Below are positions 18,185-33,217 of a stretch of 33,217 nt of DNA, piece after piece. The notes beneath the pieces were generated by a model that was not told the origin of the DNA, did no database searches, and worked only from the letters and a program-made list of their open reading frames with translations. The first letter of the stretch is position 1. Every line of letters begins with the position of its first letter. The stretch is from Opitutia bacterium (GTDB taxonomy: Bacteria; Verrucomicrobiota; Verrucomicrobiia; Opitutales; Opitutaceae). The stretch spans positions 1 through 33,217 of the forward strand of contig CANJCM010000051.1 of NCBI GenBank assembly GCA_947472765.1, given 5' to 3'. A program made the translations under genes and the position numbers.

Positions 18185-18762
18185 TTTGCGTCTCTACGGT
18201 TAAGTTGGTTCATGGCTGTCTCGACGCCGCGGGAGAGCAGCAATTCGAGTCCGGACACATGGGTTTCGAGTTGTTGAGTGAGAAAAGTGTGTTGTTCAGT
18301 TGTGAAATTTCCGAGGACAAAGTCCGTGAGTTCCATCGCCGCGGGCTTCGGGCCGATGCCCAATCGGTAACGGATGAATCCGTCGCCCAGATGCTCGAGC
18401 AAACTGGCCACCCCGTTGTGGCCACCGGCGCTTCCACTGACCGAGACCTTGATGAGGCCAAGATCGATGGTGAGATCGTCGTAGATCGCGACCACTTGCG
18501 GGACGTCCAGCTTGTAATAGCGCGCCACGGCACCGATAGCCCTGCCGCTTTCGTTCATGAACGTCTGCGGCTTGACCAACCAGCGGGTGCCTCCACCGGC
18601 GAGATTCCACCGGGCAACCTCCGCATTGAACTGGGGCGCTTGCTTCCAGGCCAGACCCCGCTTGCGGGCGAGGGCATCGAGCACAATCCAACCGTAATTG
18701 TGACGGTTGGACGCATACTCTCGGCCGGGATTGCCCAGGGCGGCAACCAGCGTGATGGACAT
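18181..18762 (-). CDS. pth: peptidyl-tRNA hydrolase
   Basis: Frees tRNAs from stalled peptides. The 193-residue protein carries the family motifs in order: GNPGREYASNRHNYG with the catalytic His (residue 21), KPQTFMNESG, YDDLTIDLG with the catalytic Asp, and GSAGGHNGVASL. The length is normal for bacterial Pth. It lies 63 bases after rplY and overlaps rpsF by four bases, so it is part of the leftward cluster. Confidence 0.97.
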   Translation of the reverse strand: MSITLVAALGNPGREYASNRHNYGWIVLDALARKRGLAWKQAPQFNAEVARWNLAGGGTRWLVKPQTFMNESGRAIGAVARYYKLDVPQVVAIYDDLTIDLGLIKVSVSGSAGGHNGVASLLEHLGDGFIRYRLGIGPKPAAMELTDFVLGNFTTEQHTFLTQQLETHVSGLELLLSRGVETAMNQLNRRDAK

Positions 18763-18825
18763 GACTCAAAGAACAATTGCCCGGCCCCGGCCGCAGGAAG
18801 CGGCTGGAGCGGCAAGGAAAACGGC

Positions 18826-19617
18826 TTACTTCTTCGCCGGGGCGGCGGGCTTGGCGCCCGCGGCCGGAGCAGCGGCCTTGGCACCGGCAGCGGGGGCCGC
18901 GCCGGGCTTGGCCCCAGCGGCCGGAGCAGCCTTGGCGTCGCCAGCGGCCGGGGCAGCTCCCGCAGCGGCGGCAGCGCCCTCGGCGGGTGCCGCACCAGGA
19001 GCGGCGGCAGCACCAGCGGCGGGCGTGGCGGCGACTTCCTGCACGATTTCGGCGACAGGCTCGACGCACGAAACGATCGGCTGGCCCTTGCCATCAAGGA
19101 ATTCGACGCCGGCGACCGGCTTGAGGCTGCTGACCTTAATCGTTTCGCCAACCTTCAACTCGGTGACGTCGACCTCGATGGCTTCCGGAAGATCCTTGGG
19201 CAAAACGCGAATGCGCAGCAGATGCGCGTTCATTTCGAGCACGCCACTCTGGTTTTTGACGCCGAAAGATTCCCCGACGACGTGGACCGGTACGCGGATT
19301 TCGAATTTTTCGTTGGCCTTAACCTCCTGCAAGTCGACGTGGAGGTACTTGTCGGTAATGGGATCCCGCTGAACTTCCTGAAGGAAGGAGAGCGCTTTCT
19401 CCGGCTTGTCAGCCCGCTCGAGCTCAACGAGCACAGCGCGATCGCCTACAGCCTTGAGAAGGCGGATAAACTCAGGCCCTTCGATGGAGAGCGACTCCGG
19501 ATTGGTATGCTTTCCGTAGAGAATCGCGGGGACGCGATTGGCTTTGCGGAGGCGGCGGGATGCACTGCGGCCCGTCTGGGCGCGCGACGCGACATTGAGT
19601 TTGAATTGATTAGCCAT
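18826..19617 (-). CDS. rplY: 50S ribosomal protein L25 (general stress protein CTC form)
   Basis: Binds 5S rRNA. The 263-residue protein has the L25 domain (about 1-95; LNVASRAQTGRSASRRLRKANRVPAILYG written across 7-35, then HVDLQEV) and the TL5/CTC C-terminal domain (about 100-195; RVPVHVVGES, EVDVTELKVGETIKVSSL). It ends in a tail of about 65 residues (197-263) built of Ala, Pro, Gly and Lys with APAAGAK-like repeats. The start at 19617 has an AGGGGG about 11 bases upstream; the frame is open 29 codons further but without similarity. It is the first gene of the leftward cluster, and the pth gene that commonly follows it is present. Confidence 0.93.
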   Translation of the reverse strand: MANQFKLNVASRAQTGRSASRRLRKANRVPAILYGKHTNPESLSIEGPEFIRLLKAVGDRAVLVELERADKPEKALSFLQEVQRDPITDKYLHVDLQEVKANEKFEIRVPVHVVGESFGVKNQSGVLEMNAHLLRIRVLPKDLPEAIEVDVTELKVGETIKVSSLKPVAGVEFLDGKGQPIVSCVEPVAEIVQEVAATPAAGAAAAPGAAPAEGAAAAAGAAPAAGDAKAAPAAGAKPGAAPAAGAKAAAPAAGAKPAAPAKK

Positions 19618-19643
19618 GGTTTTCGTTCCCCCTGTCACCCCGG

Positions 19644-19729
19644 AATTGGAGGCAGGCGTAATGGAAAAGAGGGTCAGGTGATACGGCGGACATCCCGAAT
19701 GCAATCAAAACTTGGGGTCACCTCCAATT
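19644..19729. repeat. inverted 9-base repeat upstream of rplY
   Basis: AATTGGAGG at 19644-19652 and its exact reverse complement CCTCCAATT at 19721-19729, with the match extending imperfectly on one side (CCGG/TCGG). The copies are 68 bases apart in the likely promoter and leader region of rplY, and could be paired operator sites or a long-range stem. Confidence 0.35.
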
Positions 19730-19834
19730 TTCGGTCCTCGGGCTGCTACCCCACTTCGACGGACCGCCGCTCAGCAGTGCGTCGACGAAGGGCCGACGCT
19801 CAGTTCGCCCGTTCCTTCATCGTTAGAAGGACAC

Positions 19835-19868
19835 AAAAATGGGCCGGCAGATCGAGATCCGCCGGCCC
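19835..19868 (-). terminator. intrinsic terminator of the DUF1592 gene
   Basis: GGGCCGGC (19841-19848) and GCCGGCCC (19861-19868) form an 8-bp stem around a 12-base loop. On the minus strand the stem is followed by ATTTTTG. It starts 17 bases after the stop of the DUF1592 gene. Confidence 0.8.
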
Positions 19869-19884
19869 GTCGAGAAATTTCAGC

Positions 19885-22653
19885 TTACTTGCTCAGGAAG
19901 AGATCGCTTTGCACGAGCTGATGCACGAGGTCGCGCACTCCGTACTGGCTCTTACTCGCGCCCTGCACGATCTGCTCGACCTTGTCGCGATCGCTGAAAC
20001 GGACCGGCGAGCCCGTGGCGAAAACCGACAATTGCCGGGCCACGTTGCGAGCAAGTTGAGCTTCGTCCTGGAGAAGGAGTTTCTTGAACTCGCGCACATC
20101 GTGGAAGGCGCGACCGTCAGAAAGCTGCCCACTGGCATCGACCGGCCGCGCGAGATAGAAAGAAAACGGCCAGCCGTTCTTGCCGAATCCGGCCACCGGC
20201 TCGGCATTGACCGCCATCGCTCGATAGCGATCACGCCAGCCTCCCATGACATCGAAGCTCTCGAGCGCAAAACCCGGGGGATCGATCTTGCGATGGCACA
20301 TGGCGCAGCTCTCGTCCGCCCGGTGCTTGTCGAGCTGTTCGCGAATGGTCGTCGCACCGCGAATGTCCGGTTCGACGGCAGGAACCGCGGCGGGAGGCAG
20401 CGGAATCTCGTAGCCCACGATGCGCTCCATGATCCACTTGCCGCGCAAAACCGGGGAAGTGGTGGTCCCGTTCGCCGTCACCTTCAGCACGCTGGCTTGG
20501 GTCATCAAGCCTCCGCGCACACTCCCCGCCGGCAGACCGACGCGACGCATCGCGACGCCCTCGACGCCCGGGATTTGGTAGTGAGTCGCCAGCCGCTCGT
20601 TGAGATAGGTGAAGTCGGAGTCGATGATGTTCCGGGTCGGAAGATTGGACCGCAGCAGGTCGGCAAAGAACAACCGGGACTCGTCGAGCGCCGCCTCAGT
20701 GAGCGAGTCGTCGAGGTAGTAATCATTATACAAGGTCGTGGAGGGGGTCGTGTCCTCCATCTTGCGGATATCGATCCAGTAATCGAGGAAGGCGGCCACG
20801 AACCGGCTCGAGCGCTCGTCCTTTAGGAGGCGTTCGGTTTCCGCACGCAGCACTTCGGGGCGATGCAGTTCACCCTTTTCCGCGCGTTGGCGGAGGATGG
20901 CATCGGGCTCGGAGTTCCAGAGAAACAGGGCGAGACGGGTCGCGAGGGCGGCGTCGTCCAACCGGCCGGGCTTTTCATCGAGATAAACAAACTGAGGCGA
21001 GGAGAGCACGGCCGTGTAGCCCGCGAGCATCGAGCCAGCGAAGCCCAAGCCCGCCTCCCGGCGCTTCTTGATCATGCTGAGGAACATCTGGACGTCGGCA
21101 TCCTGCACCTTCGTGCGGTAAACGCGCTGCATGAAGTTGCGAAGCAGCCGCTCGGCGTCGGCATCGGGATTCGTCGAGACAACCTCAACCTTCTGCGTAT
21201 CCGGGGGCATGCCCACCTGGGCACCGAAGCCACCGCCACCTGCGGTACGGCCGCCGCGACCGCGGCCACCGCCACCGGGGCTAATGGCCTCGACCGGAAT
21301 TCCAACCTCCGTCGCAGCCACCTTCTTCAGGGGGAGATCGCCAAACAGGAGGCGATAGCCGGCGTCTGTGGATTCATCGTAAAGCGGTCCTTCAACTTCC
21401 ATCCAGCGGAATGCGACACCAGGCATGCCGTCCTTTTGGGCCAGCGGATTGGTGAAACCACCGGCGAAACCAGTCGGGCGCGAGCGATAGAAACGAGAGG
21501 CGTCGGTCACGATGAATTCGTTGCCGAGCAGCCAGACCTCACCCAGTTCCTGCACGCCAGGTTCCGGATGAAGATCGATTCCGCCGAGCCGGCGGTTCGT
21601 CGCGGTGCCTTGAGAATAAACGGTAATGGGCTCGGAGCGACGGCCCTTTGAAATGTCATCGGCGTTGGGCCGGAACCAGTACGCCGGACCGGGCGAGCCC
21701 TCCTTGTCCTGTCCATTCTTGTAGCGCTGGCCGCGGCCATTGCCGCCGATCCACACGGTGTAGCCGCTAAAGGTGAAACGATAACGGCCGGCCACCGGGG
21801 CGCGGAAACTCCCCCAACGCGAACCGAATCCGGTGACATAGTTGCTCGACATCCAGGCGACCGCCTCGCGCTCGCGGACCGCGGGATCCGCCTCCCCGAC
21901 CGTCATCGGCGACTGGCGGGTGCGGACATCCGGCTGCGCGGTATAATCGAGAATCGGATATTTCAAACGGTCCGGGCCACCATTGAAGATGTTCGGGACA
22001 AAATTGGTCAGTGAGCCATCTTCACGCGCATAAAGACGCTTCTTGGTGGTCGGCGGCTGGGTCAGCTTCACGGCAATCGCCTGACGCATCGCGTAATCCG
22101 CTGCATCCATGTAACGCGCCATGTGCACGTAAGAGACGTCGAGCGCCGAACTCACCTTGTTGAAGCGAAACGCCTCACCGTCCTCCGGCAGCTGACTCTG
22201 CACCTGGAGCCAGGGCGCGTGGAGGATGTCCCGGAGCGCGCTCTCGTACTCCGAGCGGTTCAAGCGGCGACGGGTGACGCGGCCGTTGGTTTCCGCCGTC
22301 GTCTTTTCGTGGGCGATTAATTCGGCGCTGATGCCGCTCACGAAGGTGCGAACCTCGGACGGGTCGGGGCGCTTCTTGTCCTTCGGCGGCATGTCCCCCG
22401 ACTGGACCCGGTCGTGGACCTTCACCCACAGCGAAAAATTGGCGAGATCCGACGGATCGTACTTCAGCGACGTCAGGTCGAGACTGCCTTCCTTGTCGAC
22501 ATCGTTGTGACAACTCGAGCAGTGACGATCCGTGAAATCGGCGGTCTTCTCAGCGAGATCGGCCGCCCGCAGACTCGGCAGCGCGGCGAGAAGCCCGGCG
22601 ACCGCTACGACACGGGAGTGACGGGTGAGGAGGAAACCAAGCAGGGTGTTCAT
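19885..22653 (-). CDS. exported PSCyt1/DUF1592-family cytochrome-like protein
   Basis: A large exported protein of the kind expanded in Planctomycetes and Verrucomicrobia. The 922 residues show a signal peptide (about 1-30), a c-type haem motif CSSCH (45-49), DUF1587 (RRLNRSEYESALRDILH), an inserted carbohydrate-binding-like region with GRYRFTFSGYTVWIGGNG, a Gly/Arg-rich stretch, DUF1595/DUF1592 (RNFMQRVYRT...LDEKPGRLDDAALATRLALFLW), DUF1588 (LMTQASVLKVTANGTTTSP), a second motif CAMCHRKIDPPGFALE and DUF1585 at the C-terminus. The function is not proven; an oxidative role in polymer breakdown in the periplasm has been proposed for relatives. The usual DUF1552 partner gene is not next to it. 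No Shine-Dalgarno sequence is seen. Confidence 0.92.
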   Translation of the reverse strand: MNTLLGFLLTRHSRVVAVAGLLAALPSLRAADLAEKTADFTDRHCSSCHNDVDKEGSLDLTSLKYDPSDLANFSLWVKVHDRVQSGDMPPKDKKRPDPSEVRTFVSGISAELIAHEKTTAETNGRVTRRRLNRSEYESALRDILHAPWLQVQSQLPEDGEAFRFNKVSSALDVSYVHMARYMDAADYAMRQAIAVKLTQPPTTKKRLYAREDGSLTNFVPNIFNGGPDRLKYPILDYTAQPDVRTRQSPMTVGEADPAVREREAVAWMSSNYVTGFGSRWGSFRAPVAGRYRFTFSGYTVWIGGNGRGQRYKNGQDKEGSPGPAYWFRPNADDISKGRRSEPITVYSQGTATNRRLGGIDLHPEPGVQELGEVWLLGNEFIVTDASRFYRSRPTGFAGGFTNPLAQKDGMPGVAFRWMEVEGPLYDESTDAGYRLLFGDLPLKKVAATEVGIPVEAISPGGGGRGRGGRTAGGGGFGAQVGMPPDTQKVEVVSTNPDADAERLLRNFMQRVYRTKVQDADVQMFLSMIKKRREAGLGFAGSMLAGYTAVLSSPQFVYLDEKPGRLDDAALATRLALFLWNSEPDAILRQRAEKGELHRPEVLRAETERLLKDERSSRFVAAFLDYWIDIRKMEDTTPSTTLYNDYYLDDSLTEAALDESRLFFADLLRSNLPTRNIIDSDFTYLNERLATHYQIPGVEGVAMRRVGLPAGSVRGGLMTQASVLKVTANGTTTSPVLRGKWIMERIVGYEIPLPPAAVPAVEPDIRGATTIREQLDKHRADESCAMCHRKIDPPGFALESFDVMGGWRDRYRAMAVNAEPVAGFGKNGWPFSFYLARPVDASGQLSDGRAFHDVREFKKLLLQDEAQLARNVARQLSVFATGSPVRFSDRDKVEQIVQGASKSQYGVRDLVHQLVQSDLFLSK

Positions 22654-22926: not shown

Positions 22927-23001
22927 TGGCTGCCCGGGTAGGGGTCGAACCTACGACCAAGTGATTAACAGTCACCTGCTCTGCCACTGAGCTACCGGGC
23001 A
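22927..23001 (-). tRNA. tRNA-Asn(GTT), CCA encoded
   Basis: On the minus strand the acceptor arm TGCCCGG pairs with CCGGGCA, the D arm reads GCTCAGTGGCAGAGC, the anticodon loop CTGTTAA gives GTT, and the T arm reads GTAGGTTCGACCCCTAC. The discriminator base is G and the CCA is encoded at 22927-22929. It stands alone between the DUF1592 gene and the M1 aminopeptidase. Confidence 0.96.
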
Positions 23002-23164
23002 ATTACATTCCCCGTAACGAATTAGGAACCAGCACGAGCCATCGCCCACTGTCCGGTCCTCCCTCGAAACGTCGGAGCGGTCATTACTACGGAACGTCCA
23101 CAAGCACGGGCAAGCAAAATGGTGTGTTTCTCAATTCTACCTCGGCCAGAACCTGTTTTCGCGG

Positions 23165-23722
23165 TCAGCGCGACGATTTCGCCGCGATCCAAGCGTCAAC
23201 CGCCGGCATCACGCGGGCCCGCAACTCCGCCTTGAAACGAATGTTCTCCGCCGACTTCGCTGCCTCGGACGCGCCCGCCGCCCCGACTTTAGCCGAGACG
23301 AGGGCCAAGAGCTCGTCAGCCCGGGTTTCGTCAGAGAAATTTTCCGCGATCGCCGGGAAGTAGGTGTTCCGCGTCAGAAACGCACCGCCGGCTGGAACCT
23401 TCGCCAGCAACGCAGCCGAGTTTTCGCGGGCAAAATTCCAGGCCAGTTCCGGGTGCCGTCGCGCCACATGAGCCACGAGGTTGAACCACTGCGCGAGTCC
23501 GCGCTCCTCGGACAAGGCCAGCGCCAGCGTTCGACGCGCCAGAGCCGGATCACGCACCTCCTCGAACGCCTGATAGTATCGATTTTGTTCCTCGGTGCTC
23601 GTCGCCCCGCGCGCAAGGACGTGGAGCTTCTCCCAAGTGGTGGCGTCAGCATACCAGCCGGCGATGCGACAAACCGCGGTCCGCAGATCTCCCGGCAATG
23701 AATCCGGTTCAAGGAGGAATCG
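23165..23722 (-). pseudogene. C-terminal part of the M1 aminopeptidase beyond the TAG
   Basis: It is in the same frame as the aminopeptidase and directly after its TAG codon; translation reads RFLLEPDSLPGDLRTAVCRI, then AGWYADATTWEKL and on to DAWIAAKSSR before a TGA. The pattern (AVCRIAGWYADATTWEKL, STEEQNRYYQAFEEVRDP, LARRTLALALSEE, HPELAWNFARENSAALL) is the end of the ERAP1_C domain. It has no start codon with a ribosome binding site, although an ATG at 23698 exists. It would be made only by readthrough, by internal initiation, or if the TAG is an error. Confidence 0.85.
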
Positions 23723-25810
23723 CTAAAAACGCCGCTTCGCTTCCGCGACAATTTCTGGATCCCCGAGGAGGCCCAGCGCCACGATCACTCGCGATCGCAG
23801 CACACCATCGTTCGAACGCTCGCCGGGCTTTGCCTGCCAGCCCAGTTGCCCGAAAGGTCCTCTCAGTCGCTCCGTCCACCACCGATCAAACGCCGGCTTG
23901 CCGGGCGTGCCGCGGGCGATTCTTTCGAGTCGGTCGAGGCTGCGGAGAATCTGCTCCCAGATCGCCAGCGAGGTCTCGCCCGCGGGCAGCCGTGCGACCA
24001 GTTCAAGATAACGACCGACCTCACCCCGGCCGGACTCAGTCAGCGCCCACGTGTCGGCCAGCAGGTTCACCCGATCGTCTTCCGAAAGGAGCGCGAAATT
24101 CCCTGCCAGGGCCTCGGCCAGCGGCGCGGAATACGAGGCGCGATAGTAGCCCGTGTTGCCGACGTTGATTTTAACCGCCGCGCCCGGTCGCAGCGGCAGC
24201 GACACCCGGGCCGGTTCGCCGGCCACGAGCACGGTTCGAGCGGGCACAGACTGGTCCGCCGGCGCGAGCGCCACGGGAATCTGCCAGGTCTGCGGTGCCG
24301 GCGAGGGATCGCCGACCGCAAAGCGCTCCTGCGTCAAAACGAGCTCAGTCCGGCCGTCCGCTTCCTGTGCGGAAACGTGCACGAGCGGAAACCCCGGCTG
24401 GGTGGTCCAGCCTTCCGCCAGCGTACGCACGGGTTTTCCCGACGCAGATTCGAGCGCGGTCCAGAGATCTGCCGTGGTCGTGTTGCTGTAGGCGTGCCGC
24501 TCGATGTAGCCGCGGATTCCGGCGCGAAAATCCGCCTCGCCGACATAGGACTCCAGCATGCGAAGAAACGCCTGGCCCTTGCTGTAGGTGATCTCGTCGA
24601 ACGCATCCGAGGCCTCGCCCTCCGTGAGTACCGGTTGCTGGATCGGATGAGTCGTACGGCGGGCATCGCGCCCCATCGCTCCTTCCTTGTCGTCATTGGC
24701 TCGCAGCCACACCTGCCAGGCCGGGTTGAAGTGATCCGTGGCCTTGGTCCCCATCCAGGACGCGAAGCCCTCGTTGAGCCAGAGATTGTCCCACCAAGCC
24801 ATCGTCACGAGATTCCCGAACCACTGGTGCGCGATCTCGTGCGCAATGATCGAGTAGATGCCTTCCTTCGTGCTCTGGGAGCTCGACGCCGGATCGAACA
24901 GGATCGCCGACTCGATGTAAGTGATGCCGCCCCAGTTCTCCATCGCCCCCGAAAATCCGCCCGGCACCGCAATCTGGTCCAGCTTGGGCAGCGGATAACG
25001 GGTGCCAAAGTACTCGTTGTAATAGCGAATGACCTGTTTCGTGACCTCCATCGCATACCGCGCCTGGGCGCTCACGCCCCGCCGGGTCCAGATCGCGAGT
25101 TGGACGCCATCGATCTCGTCGCGCAGCGCCTCGAGTTCCCCGACGCAGAGCACCATGAGATAACTGGACATCGCCGGCGTCGGGCCAAACGCCACTTCAC
25201 GCTTTCCACCCGCGACCGCGCGTTCCGAGGTGATCGGCGTGTTCGAGACGGCCGTCTGCGTTCCGGCGATCGTGACCGTCAATTGGAAGGTCGCGCGAAA
25301 GGCGGGCTCGTCCCAGCACGGGAACAAGCGTCGGGCCTCGGTGGGCTCCAATTGCGTGCCGAGAAAAATCCGTTCCCCGTCCGGCGTCTGATACTTCTCC
25401 GCGTAGAGTCCCGTCGCGTGCCGGGTGATCTTCCCGCGGAACGCCAATTGCAATTTGTGCCTCCCCGGGGCCAGCGGCTCCGCCAGCGCGAATGCGGCCG
25501 TCTGCGCGTCCAAATCCAAACGAGGCAGCGCCAGCGCCGCACCATCGACGGCCGCCGCCGTGAATTCCAAATCGACCGCGTTGAACGTCAGCGTTCGCAC
25601 GGGCTCGCTCACCTCGAGGTCGATGACCACGCTTCCCGTCGTGGAAAACGTCGCTGCGTCCGGTTCCAGCGTGATGGCGTAGTGGCGGGGCACGACGGTC
25701 TTCGGCAGCCGGCCCGGCGTGCTCGCGAACGAAAAGGGCGCCTCGGCCCCTCGCGCCGACATCAACGCGAGCACGCCCAGCGCCACGGCAATTTCCATTC
25801 TCCATCTCAT
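23723..25810 (-). CDS. M1 zinc aminopeptidase, cut short by in-frame TAG
   Basis: Removes N-terminal residues from peptides, probably in the periplasm. The signal peptide is MRWRMEIAVALGVLALMSARGAEA. The exopeptidase motif GAMENWG is followed by the zinc site H324-E325-x2-H328 and E347 (HEIAHQWFGN...LNEGFASWMG), and a family Tyr lies further on. The ERAP1_C helical domain starts at about 510. The frame stops at TAG (23723-23725) after EIVAEAKRRF, in the middle of that helical domain. The same frame then continues with matching family sequence down to 23165, which would give about 881 residues, the normal size. The 695-residue product would lack about a fifth of the protein. ATG at 25798 is a possible alternative start. 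Confidence 0.9.
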   Translation of the reverse strand: MRWRMEIAVALGVLALMSARGAEAPFSFASTPGRLPKTVVPRHYAITLEPDAATFSTTGSVVIDLEVSEPVRTLTFNAVDLEFTAAAVDGAALALPRLDLDAQTAAFALAEPLAPGRHKLQLAFRGKITRHATGLYAEKYQTPDGERIFLGTQLEPTEARRLFPCWDEPAFRATFQLTVTIAGTQTAVSNTPITSERAVAGGKREVAFGPTPAMSSYLMVLCVGELEALRDEIDGVQLAIWTRRGVSAQARYAMEVTKQVIRYYNEYFGTRYPLPKLDQIAVPGGFSGAMENWGGITYIESAILFDPASSSQSTKEGIYSIIAHEIAHQWFGNLVTMAWWDNLWLNEGFASWMGTKATDHFNPAWQVWLRANDDKEGAMGRDARRTTHPIQQPVLTEGEASDAFDEITYSKGQAFLRMLESYVGEADFRAGIRGYIERHAYSNTTTADLWTALESASGKPVRTLAEGWTTQPGFPLVHVSAQEADGRTELVLTQERFAVGDPSPAPQTWQIPVALAPADQSVPARTVLVAGEPARVSLPLRPGAAVKINVGNTGYYRASYSAPLAEALAGNFALLSEDDRVNLLADTWALTESGRGEVGRYLELVARLPAGETSLAIWEQILRSLDRLERIARGTPGKPAFDRWWTERLRGPFGQLGWQAKPGERSNDGVLRSRVIVALGLLGDPEIVAEAKRRF

Positions 25811-26135
25811 CGCCCCATGCTTGCGGGAGAGTTGGGACTGGCCAGCCGATTAACACCTCGCCCACGACACGTCTAGATCCGGAACCATTCATTCGGACGT
25901 CCGTTCACGACGGCGAGGAGGAACACCATAAGGTGTAGGGCTGCCGCTCGCCGGCAGGCCACGGTCTTCATTCGCGAAGCGGCCCGGCGGCGAGCGCCGG
26001 CCCTACATTTGACTGCTTAGTTCCGGCCAAATACCTCGCGAGCCAAACCCGGGCCGTGATTCAACCCGATGACGCGGCGCCGCGCCCTTTCGTTTGACGC
26101 GGTTGGCCCCGGAGCTTCGGCTGCTCCCCTACCCT
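25811..26135. other. divergent gap holding a REP pair
   Basis: A gap of 325 bases between the aminopeptidase and SDR genes, which diverge. It holds the paired hairpin unit at 25934-26007, listed separately. I see no clear promoter boxes and no believable small gene in the remainder. Confidence 0.5.
25934..26007. repeat. REPIN-like unit A (two inverted REP arms, heads outward)
   Basis: The left arm (25934-25960) begins TGTAGGGC and folds TGCCG-CTCGC-CGGCA. The right arm (25981-26007) is its inverted counterpart, ending GGCCCTACA. The arms match at about 22 of 27 positions and are 20 bases apart. A GTAG head in front of a short stem-loop is the hallmark of REP sequences. Confidence 0.8.
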
Positions 26136-26921
26136 ATGAATTCCGCCCCCTCCCGCCGCGTTGCAGGCAAAGTCGTTCTCATCACCGGAGCCGGTGCCGG
26201 CATTGGCGCCGCCTGTGCCTCCCTCTTCGCCCGGGAAGGCGCGACCATTGCCGTGGCGGATCAGTCGCTCGCGGCGGCGCAACCCGTGGTCGAGGCCGTC
26301 CTCGCCGAAGGCGGCCAGGCCGCGGCGTTCACCTGTGACGTCGCGAATCGCGCGAGCGCAGAAAAACTGATTCCCGAAGTCGTCGCCCGTTTCAAACGCG
26401 TCGACGTGCTCATCAACTGCGCCGGTGTCACCAACCGCAACGCGCCGCCCGACTGGGATTGGGAGAAAGTGTGGGACTTCGTCATGGCCGTGAACATGAA
26501 GGGCACGTTCCTGCTCTCGAAATTCGCGGTGGAGCAAATGGTCCGCCAGGGCGGCGGCGCGATCGTGAACCTGTCCTCAATCTTTGGACTCGTGGGCCGG
26601 CCCGCCGGCATCGGCAACGGCCTCGATGCCTATCTGCACAGCAAGGGCGGCGTCGCCCAGCTGACCCGCGACATGGCCGTCCATTTTGCCAAGGACCACG
26701 TCCGCGTGAACGCCCTTTGCCCGGGCTTCGTCTACACGGCCCTGACGAAGAAGCTCACCGACGATCCCGCGACGCTGAAGTATCTCGAGGACCGCCATCC
26801 CATGGGCCGCCTCGGCCGCCCCGAGGAGATCGCCCGCGCCGCGCTGTTTCTCGCGTCCGACGAAGCGTCGTACATCACGGGGGCCTGCCTGCCGGTCGAC
26901 GGCGGCTACACCGCGCAGTAA
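26136..26921 (+). CDS. SDR-family NAD(P)-dependent oxidoreductase
   Basis: A classical short-chain dehydrogenase/reductase of 261 residues. It has the cofactor loop TGAGAGIG (17-24), the NNAG-equivalent NCAG (94-97), the catalytic Ser in NLSSIFG (145-151), Y166 and K170 (YLHSK), and the C-terminal PVDGGYTAQ. ADQ at the end of the second strand (Asp42) suggests NAD rather than NADP. Relatives act on sugars, sterols or 3-oxoacyl compounds, and the substrate cannot be told. The ATG at 26136 was preferred to an upstream TTG start because residue 10 onwards (AGKVVLITG) matches the family start. It faces the binding-protein gene tail to tail. Confidence 0.92.
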   Translation: MNSAPSRRVAGKVVLITGAGAGIGAACASLFAREGATIAVADQSLAAAQPVVEAVLAEGGQAAAFTCDVANRASAEKLIPEVVARFKRVDVLINCAGVTNRNAPPDWDWEKVWDFVMAVNMKGTFLLSKFAVEQMVRQGGGAIVNLSSIFGLVGRPAGIGNGLDAYLHSKGGVAQLTRDMAVHFAKDHVRVNALCPGFVYTALTKKLTDDPATLKYLEDRHPMGRLGRPEEIARAALFLASDEASYITGACLPVDGGYTAQ

Positions 26922-26960
26922 AGCGGTTGGCGTTGTGGCGTAGCGACGATGCGTCGCGGG

Positions 26961-27028
26961 CGCGCACGAGGCGCGCCCCTACGAAAGGCGCAGCGTTCTC
27001 CCCGTAGGGGCGGGGCTCGTCCACGCCC
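26961..27028. repeat. REPIN-like unit B (two inverted REP arms, heads inward)
   Basis: The left arm (26961-26983), read on the minus strand, starts CGTAGGGGC and folds CGCGC-CTCGT-GCGCG. The right arm (27003-27028) starts CGTAGGGGC on the plus strand and has the loop CTCGT. The two GTAG heads face each other across 19 bases. Its left arm shares 26 identical bases with unit F. It lies between two convergent genes. Confidence 0.8.
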
Positions 27029-27061
27029 GCTCGACTCCGCCCTCTCCACGGTCCCCCGCGC

Positions 27062-28681
27062 TCAACTCCCGCCGCGTGCGATGCGTTCGGCCGCGGCGTA
27101 ATTGGCGCGGAGGGCGTCGCCGAGTTCCTTCGCCAGGCGCACTTCGTCGACCTTGTTCTTCGAGGTCATGGCGCGCCGGACGACGTCGCCCACTCGTTCG
27201 TAGTCGATGAGCTTGAGATCCTGCAGCCGGGACATCGCCTGCGTGCGGGCCGGCTCCGGCGCCGCGAGAATGGCGCGCCAGGCGGAGACGAGTTCCGGGT
27301 GCGTGTCCTGGCACATCACGCGAATCACGAAAGCCATCTCGCGAAAGATCCGGCCGGTCCACGCTTCCCGATAGACGAGCGGTTCGCGCTGTTCGTAAGG
27401 CGATTCCTCGGGATCACTGAGGAACGGCTTCCACTCGGAATGGGCATAGAAGTCGCGACGCACCGGCAGCCGCCGCAGGGCAAAACGTTCAGGGCCACCC
27501 GGCGTCCCCACCTTGAAGTTCCACAACTTCTGACCCTCCATCGACAGCACATACTCGATGAAGAGCACCGCGGCGTCGCGATGGCGCGCTCCCCGCAACA
27601 GCCCGATCGGATCGACCGACGCGACGGAGCCACCGGGCGGCGAAACATAGCCAATTCGCTCGGACCGGTCGCGCCGGCGGACAGCCTCCTGCTGCTGGCG
27701 GCCGTAGAAATCGATGCACAGGCCGGCGGCACAATTCCCGGTCGCAACATCGATGGGCGGCTTTTGCGAGCTGTCCGTGAAGTAGCGGCTGTTGGCCCCA
27801 ATCAACTGGAGCAGCTTCATGCCCTCGAGCCAGCCCTCCCGGACGGCCCGCGCCTCGCGTTCGGCCGGGGTCCCCGCGGACGCGTCGGCCTGCAGCGCTT
27901 GAAAGCGCCGCTGCATCTGTTGCTGCACGATGTTCTCAAAGGCCTTGGCGACCGATCCGCTCTTCGTCGGATCCGCGAGCGCCACTTCCCCAATCAATCG
28001 CGGGTCGGCGAGATCGGTCCACTGCGTCGGCTCGCGCTCAATGCCCAGACGACGGAGAGCGTCGCGGTTGAAGATGATGCCGTACGAACTGAGCACGGCG
28101 CCAATCCAGAGCCCATCGCGATGCCAGTAATCCTCCCCGCCGTAACTCCGCGGAATCACATTGGGCGAAAACCAATCCGGGTGCGCCTTCACGACCCCGG
28201 AATCCACCAGCCGGCCGGCCGTCGCCTGGCGCTCGAAGTCGAAGGTGCCGCCGCCAAAAAACAAATCGATGCCGCAACTGACCTCCGACGCGAGGAACGC
28301 CGCGCGGGCCTCGCGCACAAGCGCCGGCGCATCGGCCGGGAGACGCGCATTGTGAAACCCAGCCTGCACTTCCGCGCTCCACGGTTTGCCCAGGGTGCGG
28401 CGCCAGTGGTTCTCGAACGCCGCGACGTACTCGCCCTCAAGAAAGCGGGCAATTTCGCTTGTGCCGCCGAGCACGCGCCAGTCGATCGCAACGGTGCGGC
28501 CGGTCCGCGCCTTGTACCAGTCGGAAAACCCGCGGGCGTACTCGTAACGGATCGCCTCGTTGTGCGGCGTGACAATCGCGACCGTGTCGTCCGCCTGCGC
28601 CGCGCTTTCCCGCTTCGGCCGCAGGATAAACGGCAGCGCCACGACGGCGAGGAGCGCGAAGACGATGGCGAAACGCTTCAT
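27062..28681 (-). CDS. ABC transporter substrate-binding protein, iron/thiamine/polyamine type
   Basis: Family 1 extracellular binding protein, 539 residues, longer than the usual 330-360. It has a signal peptide MKRFAIVFALLAVVALPFIL without a lipobox Cys, then the typical first strand TVAIVTPHNEAIRYEYARGFSDWYK, DLFFGGGTFDFERQATAGRL, a domain cross-over around VLSSYGIIFNRDALRRLGI and PTQWTDLADPRLIGEVALADPTKSGS, and later GYVSPPGGSVASVDPIGLLRGARHRDAAVLFIEYVLSMEGQKLW. The C-terminal 130 residues or so are an extension without recognised motifs. It follows the ABC ATPase by 82 bases on the same strand; the expected permease gene is missing. The ligand is unknown; Fe(III) is one possibility. Confidence 0.88.
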   Translation of the reverse strand: MKRFAIVFALLAVVALPFILRPKRESAAQADDTVAIVTPHNEAIRYEYARGFSDWYKARTGRTVAIDWRVLGGTSEIARFLEGEYVAAFENHWRRTLGKPWSAEVQAGFHNARLPADAPALVREARAAFLASEVSCGIDLFFGGGTFDFERQATAGRLVDSGVVKAHPDWFSPNVIPRSYGGEDYWHRDGLWIGAVLSSYGIIFNRDALRRLGIEREPTQWTDLADPRLIGEVALADPTKSGSVAKAFENIVQQQMQRRFQALQADASAGTPAEREARAVREGWLEGMKLLQLIGANSRYFTDSSQKPPIDVATGNCAAGLCIDFYGRQQQEAVRRRDRSERIGYVSPPGGSVASVDPIGLLRGARHRDAAVLFIEYVLSMEGQKLWNFKVGTPGGPERFALRRLPVRRDFYAHSEWKPFLSDPEESPYEQREPLVYREAWTGRIFREMAFVIRVMCQDTHPELVSAWRAILAAPEPARTQAMSRLQDLKLIDYERVGDVVRRAMTSKNKVDEVRLAKELGDALRANYAAAERIARGGS

Positions 28682-28763
28682 GGGTGCCGCGACGATTCCC
28701 GGGCCCGGAGCCGGGTTGGCCCTGCCTCTCCTCCCCGCGTTGACCGCAGCACGCCCATGAAAA

Positions 28764-29834
28764 TCACTCGACCAGCACGACGACGTCCTCGGGAGCGACG
28801 CTCGCGTAGACTTCGCCGCGGTTCGCGCGCTCGAGGAAGCGCGGATTGAGTTCGAGAATCTTAAGCTTCTGGCTCCCGGCGACGAGTTCGTACTGGGCGA
28901 GTTCGCCGAGGTAAATTGCCTCCCCGATCCGGCCCTTGACCGCGTTGCGCGGCGGCGCGTCGTGGCTCAGCACCCAGCACTCGGGACGAACCGACACCGT
29001 CACCTTGGCCCCGGGAACCGGAACGACCGCGGGATTGCCGAGAACGCCATCGAAGCGACCGATCTCGGTTTCCACGACCACCGCCTGCACCGACGCACTC
29101 ACCACCGTGCCGGCGATGAAATCAGTTTCACCAATAAAGTCTGCGACGGTCCGGCACGTGGGCCGGCGGTAAACGTCACGCGGCGACCCAACCTGCAGGA
29201 TGCTGCCGCGATCGAGGATCGCCATGCGATCGGAGATCGAAAGCGCCTCCTTCTGATCGTGGGTCACGTAGACCGTCGTCAGTTTGAACTCCTTGCAGAC
29301 GCGCCGAATCTCCATCCGCATTTCGAGCCGCAGCTTCGCGTCGAGATTCGAAAGCGGCTCGTCGAGGAGCAGGCAGCGCGGCCGAATCACGAGGGCGCGG
29401 GCCAGGGCCACGCGCTGCTGCTGACCGCCGGAAAGCTGGTTGGGACGTCGCTCCGCATACGGCGCCATCCGCACCGACTCGAGGGCCTCCGCCACGCGGC
29501 GCTTCGTTTCGTCCTTCGGCACCTTTCGTTCCTCGAGCCCGAAGGCGACGTTCTCGGCCACCGTCATGTGCGGCCAGAGCGCGTAACTCTGGAACATCAT
29601 GCCGGTGTTGCGCCGGTGCGGCTCGAGTTTCGTGACGTCCTCGTCCCCGAAGAAAATGTTTCCACCGTCCGGGATGTAGAAACCCGCGAGGCTGCGGAGC
29701 AGCGTGGTCTTGCCGCACCCACTGGGGCCGAGCAGGAAGAACAGCTCTCCGGGTTGAATCGTGAGATCCAGATTCTGCAACGCGGTGACCGTTCCGAAAC
29801 GTTTCGTCAGTTGCTGGATGCGGATCGAAATCAT
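28764..29834 (-). CDS. ABC transporter ATP-binding protein, FbpC/PotA type
   Basis: Drives import across the inner membrane. The 356-residue protein has Walker A GPSGCGKT (36-43), a Q-loop at Q82, the signature LSGGQ (134-138), Walker B CLLLDE (154-159), the switch His192 in THDQKEAL, and a C-terminal TOBE-like region (about 240-356) usual in the iron, spermidine and maltose subfamily. The start at 29834 was chosen because MISIRIQQLTKRFG is the family's first strand; the frame is open 72 codons further upstream into the hpt promoter region. It is the first gene of a two-gene unit with the binding protein, and is divergent from hpt. Confidence 0.93.
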   Translation of the reverse strand: MISIRIQQLTKRFGTVTALQNLDLTIQPGELFFLLGPSGCGKTTLLRSLAGFYIPDGGNIFFGDEDVTKLEPHRRNTGMMFQSYALWPHMTVAENVAFGLEERKVPKDETKRRVAEALESVRMAPYAERRPNQLSGGQQQRVALARALVIRPRCLLLDEPLSNLDAKLRLEMRMEIRRVCKEFKLTTVYVTHDQKEALSISDRMAILDRGSILQVGSPRDVYRRPTCRTVADFIGETDFIAGTVVSASVQAVVVETEIGRFDGVLGNPAVVPVPGAKVTVSVRPECWVLSHDAPPRNAVKGRIGEAIYLGELAQYELVAGSQKLKILELNPRFLERANRGEVYASVAPEDVVVLVE

Positions 29835-29932
29835 GGAGTTTTTGCGCTGCAAAAACCCGAGGAGGCAAGGATCGGGCCGGGACTGAGTCAAAGGGATAAC
29901 CATCTTGCGGCGAAAGTGCGGCGTCTCTCGGC

Positions 29933-30002
29933 TGTAGGGCTGGCGCTTGTCGCCATGCCACTTCCTTCGTGGAGCGGCGCGTCGGCCAGCGACAGCCCTT
30001 CC
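29933..30002. repeat. REPIN-like unit C (two inverted REP arms, heads outward)
   Basis: The left arm (29933-29959) begins TGTAGGGC and folds TGGCG-CTTGT-CGCCA. The right arm (29976-30002) is a more diverged inverted copy ending CAGCCCTTCC, where the GTAG head has decayed. The arms are 16 bases apart. It lies between the divergent ABC ATPase and hpt genes, so it is in or near their promoters. Confidence 0.65.
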
Positions 30003-30082
30003 CTCAAATGAGTCGATCAGGCTTATCCCGGCAACGCATGGTTGCCTCAAACGCCCCGCGTTGTCTCGCTGCCAGCCCAGCC

Positions 30083-30664
<582 letters not shown>

Positions 30665-30671
30665 GCTTTTT

Positions 30672-30748
30672 TGTAGGGCCGCCACTTGTCGGCGGGCCTC
30701 ATCTGTAGATCGAAACGTCCGAGGCCTGCCGGCGAGCGGCAGCCCTAC
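30672..30748. repeat. REPIN-like unit D (two inverted REP arms, heads outward)
   Basis: The left arm (30672-30698) begins TGTAGGGCC with a stem GGCCGCC...GGCGGGCC around an ACTTGT-type loop. The right arm (30723-30748) is inverted, folds TGCCG-GCGAG-CGGCA and ends GCCCTAC. Its right arm is nearly identical, as reverse complement, to the left arm of unit A 4.7 kb away. Confidence 0.8.
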
Positions 30749-30765
30749 GATGCAGTTCTGTCTGA

Positions 30766-30837
30766 TGGAGGGCGGATGCCCTCATCCGCCAAATTCGTTT
30801 CGAAGGGCTGGTGGCCGGTGGGGGCACCGGCCCTCCA
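30766..30837. repeat. REPIN-like unit E (GGAG-headed variant, heads outward)
   Basis: The left arm (30766-30790) begins TGGAGGGC and folds CGGATG-CCCT-CATCCG. The right arm (30813-30837) is inverted, folds CGGTG-GGGG-CACCG and ends GGCCCTCCA. The arms are 22 bases apart. The head is GGAG rather than GTAG, the other head known for REP families. Confidence 0.72.
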
Positions 30838-30860
30838 GGTTCGGAGTCGGCCGACTGAGG

Positions 30861-30929
30861 CGCGCACGAGGCGCGCCCCTACGAAAATCGTGACGTCGCG
30901 ACTTGTAGGGGCGTGGCTCGTCCACGCCC
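30861..30929. repeat. REPIN-like unit F (two inverted REP arms, heads inward)
   Basis: The left arm (30861-30883), read on the minus strand, starts CGTAGGGGC with stem CGCGC-CTCGT-GCGCG. The right arm (30904-30929) starts TGTAGGGGC and folds CGTGG-CTCGT-CCACG. The heads face each other across 20 bases. It is the third of three units packed between hpt and uvrB. Confidence 0.8.
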
Positions 30930-30937
30930 AATCTCGT

Positions 30938-30955
30938 TACGCCTTTCCTGGCGTA
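30938..30955 (-). terminator. weak hairpin just after uvrB
   Basis: TACGCC and GGCGTA pair around a 6-base loop, two bases after the uvrB stop. There is no T-run, so if it ends transcription it does so poorly or with Rho. Confidence 0.3.
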
Positions 30956-30957
30956 GC

Positions 30958-33006
30958 CTACTTCAGCCGCTTCGGGCCGCGCACCGCCGCAGCCGTCTTC
31001 TTCGCCAGCGGATAATTCGTCTTCGTGTCCTTCCGGGGAGACCGGAAGTTGCCGCTCTTCAACGCATCGATCTGATCGCGCAACACCGCGGCCCGCTCGA
31101 ACTCGAGCCGATCGGCCGCACCCTGCATCTCTTCCTCGAGCTCGGCCACGACAGCCGCGACATCGTCGACGTTTTCCGCCAGCGCCGCCTCCGCCCCACC
31201 CCGATCGCCGGAACCGTCGTACACATGCAGGCTCGACTGCGCCCCGCGCTTCACGCTGCGCGGCGTGATCCCATGCTCCTGATTGTAGGCGAGCTGCTTC
31301 GCGCGCCGGTAAGTGACCGCTTCCATCGTCTTGCGGATCGATTCCGTGATCACGTCCGCATAAAAAATCACGCGTCCCTTTTCGTGCCGCGCCGCGCGTC
31401 CGGCGGTTTGGATGAGCGAGGTTTCGCTCCGCAAGAACCCTTCCTTGTCGGCATCGAGAATCGCGACGAGGGCAACCTCGGGAAGATCGAGGCCCTCGCG
31501 CAGGAGATTGATGCCCACGAGCACATCGAAATTGCCAAGCCGCAAGTTGCGCAGGATCTCGACGCGCTCGATGGCATCGATGTCCGAGTGCAGGTATTCG
31601 ACGCGGATCTTCGCCTCGCGCAAATGGCTCGTGAGGTCCTCCGAAAGTCGTTTCGTCAGCGTCGTCACGAGCACGCGCTCGCCGGCGGCGGTCGCGGCCT
31701 TGATCTCCGCAATCAGGTGCTCGACCTGTCCTTTCGTCGACCGGATGACGATCTCGGGATCGAGCAGGCCGGTTGGCCGCACGAGCTGTTCCGCGACCAC
31801 GGCAGAACGCTCGATCTCGAACTTCGCCGGCGTCGCGGACACGTAGACGGTCTGACCGGTCACTTGTTCGAACTCCGCATAACTCTGCGGCCGGTTGTCG
31901 AGCGCCGACGGCAGCCGGAAGCCGAAGTTCACCAGCGTCTCCTTCCGGGCCCGGTCCCCGTTGAACATGCCGCCGATCTGGGGAATCGTGGCGTGGCTCT
32001 CGTCGACGATCACGAGGTAGTCCTTGGCAAAGAAATCGAGCAGGCAAAACGGCCGCTCCCCCGGCGTGCGGCCCGTCAGGTGCCGCGAGTAGTTCTCGAT
32101 GCCGTTGCAGAATCCCATCTCCTGCAGCATCTCGAGATCGTAGTTCGTCCGCATCCGGATGCGCTGCGCCTCGAGATACTGGCCATTCTTTTCGAAAAAC
32201 GCCACGCGTTCATCGAGCTCCTTGCGGATGGCAATGATGGCCGGCTCGAGCTTGCCGCGGCTTGTGACGTACTGGTTCGCCGGATAAAGATCGAACTGGT
32301 CGAGCGTGCGAATCACCTCGCCCGTGAGCGGATCGAACTCGCTCAACGCGTCGATCTCGTCGCCGAAAAATTCCACGCGCAAGCCGTGCTCGAGATACGA
32401 CGGCATGATGTCGACCACATCGCCGCGCACCCGGAAGCGGCCGGGCTTCAATTCATAATCGTTTCGGTCGTAGATGTTGTCCACGAGCCGCTCGAGCAGC
32501 TTTTGGCGCCCGAGTTGCGTCCCACGGCGCAGCGGAATCCGCATCGAGGTGAACTCCTGCGGCGAGCCCAACCCGTAGATGCACGAAACACTCGCCACCA
32601 CGATCACATCGCGCCGCGACACGAGCGAACTCGTCGTCGACATCCGCATCCGCTCGATCTCCTCGTTGATGGACGAGTCCTTCTCGATGAACGTGTCGCT
32701 CGAGGGAATGTAGGCCTCGGGCTGATAGTAGTCGTAGTAGCTGACGAAGTACTCGACCGCGTTCTCGGGGAAGAAATTCTTGAACTCGGAGTAGAGCTGC
32801 GCGGCGAGGGTCTTGTTGTGCGAGATGATCAACGCGGGCCGTTGCACCTGCTGAATCACGTTCGCCATCGTGAACGTCTTCCCCGAACCCGTGACCCCCA
32901 GCAGCGTCTGGTAGCGGTTCCCGGTGCGCAGCGACGCCACCAGCTTGTCGATCGCCTGCGGCTGATCGCCGGTCGGCTGGTATTCGGAATTGAGTTTGAA
33001 ATCCAT
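30958..33006 (-). CDS. uvrB: excinuclease ABC subunit B
   Basis: Helicase-like damage verifier of nucleotide excision repair; UvrA loads it and UvrC cuts on it. The 682-residue protein has Walker A GVTGSGKT (37-44), the beta-hairpin region YVSYYDYYQPEAYIPSSDTF-like sequence (SYYDYYQPEAYIPSSDTFIE), the Walker B/DESH box VDESHAT, helicase motifs LREGLDLPEVALVAILDADK and QTAGRAARH, and a C-terminal UVR motif (LEEEMQGAADRLEFERAAVL) for UvrC contact. The length is normal. About 24 bases upstream on the same strand another reading frame appears to end. Confidence 0.97.
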   Translation of the reverse strand: MDFKLNSEYQPTGDQPQAIDKLVASLRTGNRYQTLLGVTGSGKTFTMANVIQQVQRPALIISHNKTLAAQLYSEFKNFFPENAVEYFVSYYDYYQPEAYIPSSDTFIEKDSSINEEIERMRMSTTSSLVSRRDVIVVASVSCIYGLGSPQEFTSMRIPLRRGTQLGRQKLLERLVDNIYDRNDYELKPGRFRVRGDVVDIMPSYLEHGLRVEFFGDEIDALSEFDPLTGEVIRTLDQFDLYPANQYVTSRGKLEPAIIAIRKELDERVAFFEKNGQYLEAQRIRMRTNYDLEMLQEMGFCNGIENYSRHLTGRTPGERPFCLLDFFAKDYLVIVDESHATIPQIGGMFNGDRARKETLVNFGFRLPSALDNRPQSYAEFEQVTGQTVYVSATPAKFEIERSAVVAEQLVRPTGLLDPEIVIRSTKGQVEHLIAEIKAATAAGERVLVTTLTKRLSEDLTSHLREAKIRVEYLHSDIDAIERVEILRNLRLGNFDVLVGINLLREGLDLPEVALVAILDADKEGFLRSETSLIQTAGRAARHEKGRVIFYADVITESIRKTMEAVTYRRAKQLAYNQEHGITPRSVKRGAQSSLHVYDGSGDRGGAEAALAENVDDVAAVVAELEEEMQGAADRLEFERAAVLRDQIDALKSGNFRSPRKDTKTNYPLAKKTAAAVRGPKRLK

Positions 33007-33030
33007 GCGACGAGTGGCGGATCGGGTCCG

Positions 33031-33162
33031 TCACCTAGATGACTCGGATCCGGATTTCCGCAAGGAAGCGTCCCCGGCGGGTTGAGCCTGAAGCCAGGAA
33101 TCCAGGAAACGATCCGCGGAGGCGGCAAGCCACTCGTTACGGCCATGGCGTCTCATCCGGGC
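33031..33162 (-). CDS. possible C-terminus of a gene upstream of uvrB (partial)
   Basis: An open frame enters from the unreadable G/C-rich edge and ends at TGA (33031-33033), 24 bases before the uvrB ATG. It reads HGRNEWLAASADRFLDSW and continues with LQAQPAGDASL, a plausible charged C-terminal helix. Only about 43 residues are available, so I cannot name it and it may be chance. Confidence 0.28.
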   Translation of the reverse strand, partial: ARMRRHGRNEWLAASADRFLDSWLQAQPAGDASLRKSGSESSR

Positions 33163-33217
33163 GTGGGGGGGGGCCCCCCCCCCCCACAAAGTGATGGGGG
33201 GGCGCGGGGGGCGCCCC

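Follow-up and report, generated by a model that had tools for sequence, protein, structure and literature searches.

A probable recent nonsense mutation in the only detected M1 aminopeptidase gene of an Opitutia bacterium

Introduction

What does a single in-frame TAG mean in a gene that otherwise appears whole? The question is raised by a gene on the minus strand of a draft assembly of an Opitutia bacterium, in a stretch of 33,217 nucleotides that is called the window below. The gene would encode an M1 aminopeptidase, and its reading frame goes on for 185 codons past the stop. An earlier note on this DNA had left three choices, namely a recent nonsense mutation, a base-calling error, and functional readthrough by a suppressor tRNA. 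We have followed these choices through the protein family, the nearest relatives of the gene, the use of TAG in the same genome, and the state of the sequence beyond the stop.

Results

The interrupted frame and its domains

Reading of the minus strand from 25810 to 23165 gives an ATG (25808–25810), 695 codons in total (23726–25810), a TAG as codon 696 (23723–23725), another 185 codons (23168–23722) and a final TGA (23165–23167). The frame is not shifted anywhere along this path, which agrees with the description in the earlier note, and neither a second stop nor a frameshift was found elsewhere in the gene. The base directly 3' of TAG is C, again as noted before, and the first base of TAG is the last of a run of five T. 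The source assembly is a draft of 157 contigs, 95.89% complete, and the window contains no N.

The product was compared with the Pfam families Peptidase_M1_N (PF17900), Peptidase_M1 (PF01433) and ERAP1_C (PF11838), and all three matched over their cut-offs. The first two cover residues 40–218 and 252–468. The piece of ERAP1_C before TAG, residues 546–695, corresponds to profile positions 2–153, and the 185 residues after TAG, taken alone, match positions 163–313 with an E value of 1.4e-15, so that the tail picks up the profile where the preceding piece leaves off. The stop thus falls within the helical domain and is followed by ERAP1_C-like sequence, both of which had been claimed from the sequence of the window. 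With TAG entered as X, there is a single ERAP1_C match over residues 546–854 and positions 2–313, scoring 179.6 bits, in comparison with 105.7 and 58.0 bits for the two halves scored separately. The continuity of ERAP1_C over TAG is far beyond chance.

A GAMEN at residue 288 and an HExxH-18-E at residue 324 are present, which we take to be the motifs of an M1 aminopeptidase. The top-scoring solved relative is the puromycin-sensitive aminopeptidase 8sw0, whose alignment to residues 33–864 spans the TAG column. Four NCBIfam families were matched, all under their cut-offs: two PepN families, leukotriene A4 hydrolase and, weakly, flagellinolysin. Judged by sequence, the gene is predicted to encode an M1 aminopeptidase of the puromycin-sensitive or ERAP-like kind. 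It shares with the M1 enzymes puromycin-sensitive aminopeptidase and ERAP1 (PDB 8sw0, 7z28) the order Peptidase_M1_N, Peptidase_M1, ERAP1_C as well as the GAMEN and HExxH-18-E motifs. All the domains and motifs of the family are therefore present; what sets the window gene apart from these enzymes is that its frame is interrupted, by the stop at codon 696 within ERAP1_C.

The TAG column in relatives

Genome contigs were scanned for relatives of the gene, which gave at least 572, and the best 80 of these were aligned. The TAG column was aligned in all 80 and holds a sense codon in every one of them and a stop in none. The position is variable, with Ala in 26 of these best 80 of at least 572, Glu in 20, Gln in 15, Lys and Asp in 8 each, and Thr, His and Asn in one each. 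Ala or Thr is found in the five nearest relatives among the 80, so these data do not point to any one codon as the one that TAG replaced. A gene split at this point as a feature of the family was rejected on the same count (a stop in 0 of the best 80).

The nearest relative among the best 80 of at least 572 is L051, a metagenome-assembled genome contig labelled 'Opitutus sp. GAS368', with 70% identity over residues 13–881. Its gene is open over the TAG column and terminates with TGA. A tRNA-Asn(gtt) lies downstream of the aminopeptidase in both L051 and the window (22927–23001, minus strand). The 880 bases 5' of the L051 gene gave no tblastx match to window positions 25812–33217, so the sharing of the locus is supported on the downstream side only. 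When window 22927–23170 is set beside L051 3494–3788, inspection by eye shows similarity around CACCATTTTGCTTGCCCG and GGACGTTCCGTAGTAAT, whereas much of the gap between the aminopeptidase and the tRNA-Asn outside this stretch differs. The similar stretch is perhaps the promoter region of the tRNA.

How widely is the gene distributed? In its own genome it is the only match to Peptidase_M1. The tail was matched in none of the 26 other genomes of the genus, and the first part in 15 of them, at 36–37% identity in the best two (G013 and G018) and more weakly in the rest. The other genus genomes searched thus hold more distant M1 relatives and no close copy, the M1 gene is patchily distributed within the genus, and the lack of a close copy makes loss plausible. 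Among 372 genomes drawn from the order, the tail was matched in 11, that is, in its own genome, in eight of the same family (41–46% identity) and weakly in two; none of the 10 other matching genomes has a stop inside the tail match.

Use of TAG in this genome

With Rfam, 42 tRNA places were located in the genome; ARAGORN was run on them, on the window and on a further 0.8 Mb, and none of the 40 anticodon types obtained reads a stop. A tRNA with the CTA anticodon, which the earlier note had proposed to look for, is thus absent from a set that is itself incomplete: Ile-gat, Ala-tgc and Ser-gct are missing from it, and Arg-tcg was found only upon scanning the extra DNA of the genome, so a suppressor tRNA could have escaped. 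The genes for tRNA-Ile(gat) and tRNA-Ala(tgc) typically lie within rRNA operons, which draft assemblies often lose. Nine places match the tRNA-Sec family, the best with 47.2 bits for a cut-off of 47; that place is a tRNA-Ser(tga) by ARAGORN, and the family also has matches in all 14 controls, over the cut-off in five; nothing came of this lead.

A predicted prfA gene, for release factor RF1, matches with 470.6 bits (cut-off 423.25) over positions 12–358 of 361 and has no internal stop. Pyrrolysine is a known system for decoding TAG; the best match to the C-terminal profile of PylS, PylS_Cterm, reaches 24.1 bits, far below its cut-off of 178.15, and pyrrolysine was rejected on this ground.

Stop usage was sampled in 833,217 bases of the genome, about one sixth of it. 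The 392 largely non-overlapping frames of at least 300 codons end with TGA in 212 cases, TAA in 93 and TAG in 85, and two run to the end of a stretch; the 85 include the first part of the gene under study, and some may be spurious. With the putative RF1 present and TAG ending 85 of 392 long frames, a change of the genetic code was rejected. The junctions between neighbouring coding stretches in the same frame (n = 61) are formed by TGA in 28 cases, TAA in 24 and TAG in nine, without an excess of TAG.

One of the nine TAG junctions is that of the aminopeptidase. The earlier note had asked for other genes interrupted in this way, and at the eight other same-frame TAG junctions in the 833,217 bases no Pfam domain could be seen extending over TAG, which led us to reject a general pattern of TAG-crossed genes. 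Domains lie on both sides in five of the eight and on one side in three. The Pfam check covered the TAG junctions and displayed the best stretch of each family only, so two of the eight were rescanned with each side apart; in both, one between Mur ligases and one between an aminotransferase and an EngA-like GTPase, the domains lie on separate sides of TAG. Among the one-sided junctions, one has a PRC barrel and a BON domain seen after TAG only, the best stretch lying wholly after TAG, although leaving out the part before TAG lowers the score for PRC from 46.7 to 27.4 bits; the other two have domains before TAG only, and the part after it has no match. TAG looks like an ordinary terminator in this genome.

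Genomes in which TAG is recoded resemble this case in having an in-frame TAG within an otherwise coding frame; a screen of genetic codes is PMC8629427. The window genome differs from them, and from pyrrolysine users, in keeping a predicted RF1, in lacking a CTA tRNA among those found and a PylS over the cut-off, and in terminating about a fifth of its long frames with TAG.

State of the tail

Identity between the window gene and L051 is 74.1% over residues 25–545, 66.7% over residues 546–695 and 65.4% over the tail; the corresponding values between L051 and L052, the genes of which are both open, are 72.3%, 57.3% and 56.7%. With L052 as the outgroup, changes specific to the window at codon positions 1, 2 and 3 number 52, 30 and 121 in residues 25–545, 20, 10 and 37 in residues 546–695, and 19, 16 and 36 in the tail. 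The ratio of positions 1 and 2 to position 3 is 35:36 in the tail and 30:37 in the part of ERAP1_C before the stop (Fisher p 0.61, with low power). Against the N-terminal part, the tail gives p 0.21, also with low power, and against the tail of L051 itself p 0.35. None of these differences is significant, and the three odds ratios (1.2, 1.4 and 1.5) all lie slightly toward relaxation. Other outgroups give tail changes of 23, 17 and 33 (L053) and of 2, 5 and 8 (L054, which ends early at a contig end). Third-position GC is 0.818 in residues 25–545, 0.727 in residues 546–695 and 0.731 after the stop.

There is thus no clear sign of decay in the tail, which is as conserved as the part of ERAP1_C before the stop. 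About 79 random changes would have to fall in the 555 bases before a second stop became 95% likely, so the lack of one means little and the decay test is weak. Since the tail is conserved to the level of the ERAP1_C sequence before the stop, the stop would be young, or an error of the draft assembly, or read through. An old pseudogene would look different, and a young one, an error and a working readthrough would all fit the constraint on the tail.

Discussion

The best explanation, to which we give a probability of roughly three in four, is that a recent nonsense mutation in this lineage truncates the only M1 peptidase detected in the genome. RF1 would stop translation at codon 696, and the resulting product of 695 residues would keep the catalytic site and, of the C-terminal helical domain, only the first half; it would probably be inactive or unstable. 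That the tail has not yet decayed would reflect the youth of the event. Genuine nonsense pseudogenes are common in bacteria, and some bacterial pseudogenes are reportedly expressed, as described in a proteomic study of 'pseudo-pseudogenes'. Ordinary single-stop pseudogenes of bacteria (a review is PMC11078800) share with this case one premature stop, here in the only detected member of its family in the genome, and open relatives. In contrast with them, this gene has no further lesion and a conserved tail, which would make it a young case or an error.

An error is the main rival to the recent mutation, because a single base in a draft assembly decides the case and that base stands last in a run of five T. 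The TAG would then be a wrong base, or the consensus of a minority strain, and the gene would be intact in the organism. The draft state of the assembly, the tail without clear decay and a gene with no other stop or frameshift all speak for this reading. Sequencing errors are indeed somewhat likelier in runs of a base, but these are mostly insertions or deletions, whereas the frame here is intact. No positive sign of an error was met in the window, with its lack of N, and the frequency of real nonsense pseudogenes also counts against it; we consider it unlikely, though by no means negligible.

Could the full-length enzyme be produced in spite of the stop? Readthrough of TAG at a useful frequency, by a near-cognate or suppressor tRNA, would yield some of it and would account for the conserved tail. 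It may be helped by the C directly after TAG, and the variable residue at this column in the best 80 of at least 572 relatives suggests that many residues would be tolerated there. The stop is, however, seen in none of these 80, the genome has a predicted RF1 and uses TAG as a terminator in the usual way, no domain could be seen crossing the eight other TAG junctions, no PylS match exceeds the cut-off, and the incomplete set of 40 anticodon types holds no tRNA for a stop. Readthrough is accordingly very improbable, and the same slim chance is given to a narrower form of it, in which the stop is genuine and maintained in the species, with near-cognate readthrough yielding enough full-length enzyme for the tail to stay under selection. 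Still less credible is an enzyme of two pieces, in which a separately started C-terminal piece would bind the 695-residue part. In-frame starts do exist among the first 66 codons after TAG, a TTG as the 9th codon and a GTG as the 56th, the latter directly preceded by GAGGAG. However, no evident Shine-Dalgarno-like stretch is present in the 20 bases 5' of the TTG, the purine run abuts the GTG itself, a piece begun at GTG would lack what the tail's first 55 codons encode, and the column is without a stop in the best 80 of at least 572 relatives. For both readthrough and two pieces, the conserved tail is the only positive support, and mutation and error explain it equally well.

Among the three choices left by the earlier note, the recent nonsense mutation therefore fits the observations, and readthrough by a suppressor tRNA found no support. 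The note had also described a simple pseudogene as one in which the relatives carry a sense codon and the genome has no suppressor tRNA; within the limits of a draft assembly and an incomplete tRNA set, this is the situation here. Among the titles listed in a literature search, none concerned this aminopeptidase gene. A young nonsense mutation, or an error, would be of little importance past the annotation of this genome, in which the locus should be entered as one interrupted gene and not as two genes; wider importance would require evidence that the full-length protein is produced.

Other open frames and genes

Two open frames on the plus strand of the window gave no Pfam match. One, at 23846–25876 (676 residues), is antisense to the aminopeptidase, and the other, at 18205–20826 (873 residues), is partly antisense to a minus-strand gene at 19885–22653 that encodes a Planctomycete-cytochrome/DUF1592/DUF1588 protein. 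Both are probably spurious, of the antisense kind that arises in GC-rich DNA. A second Planctomycete-cytochrome/DUF1592/DUF1588 protein is encoded elsewhere in the genome (L177:6420-10841), where it is followed by a TAG and then, in the same frame, by a DUF1552 (HXXSHH) gene.
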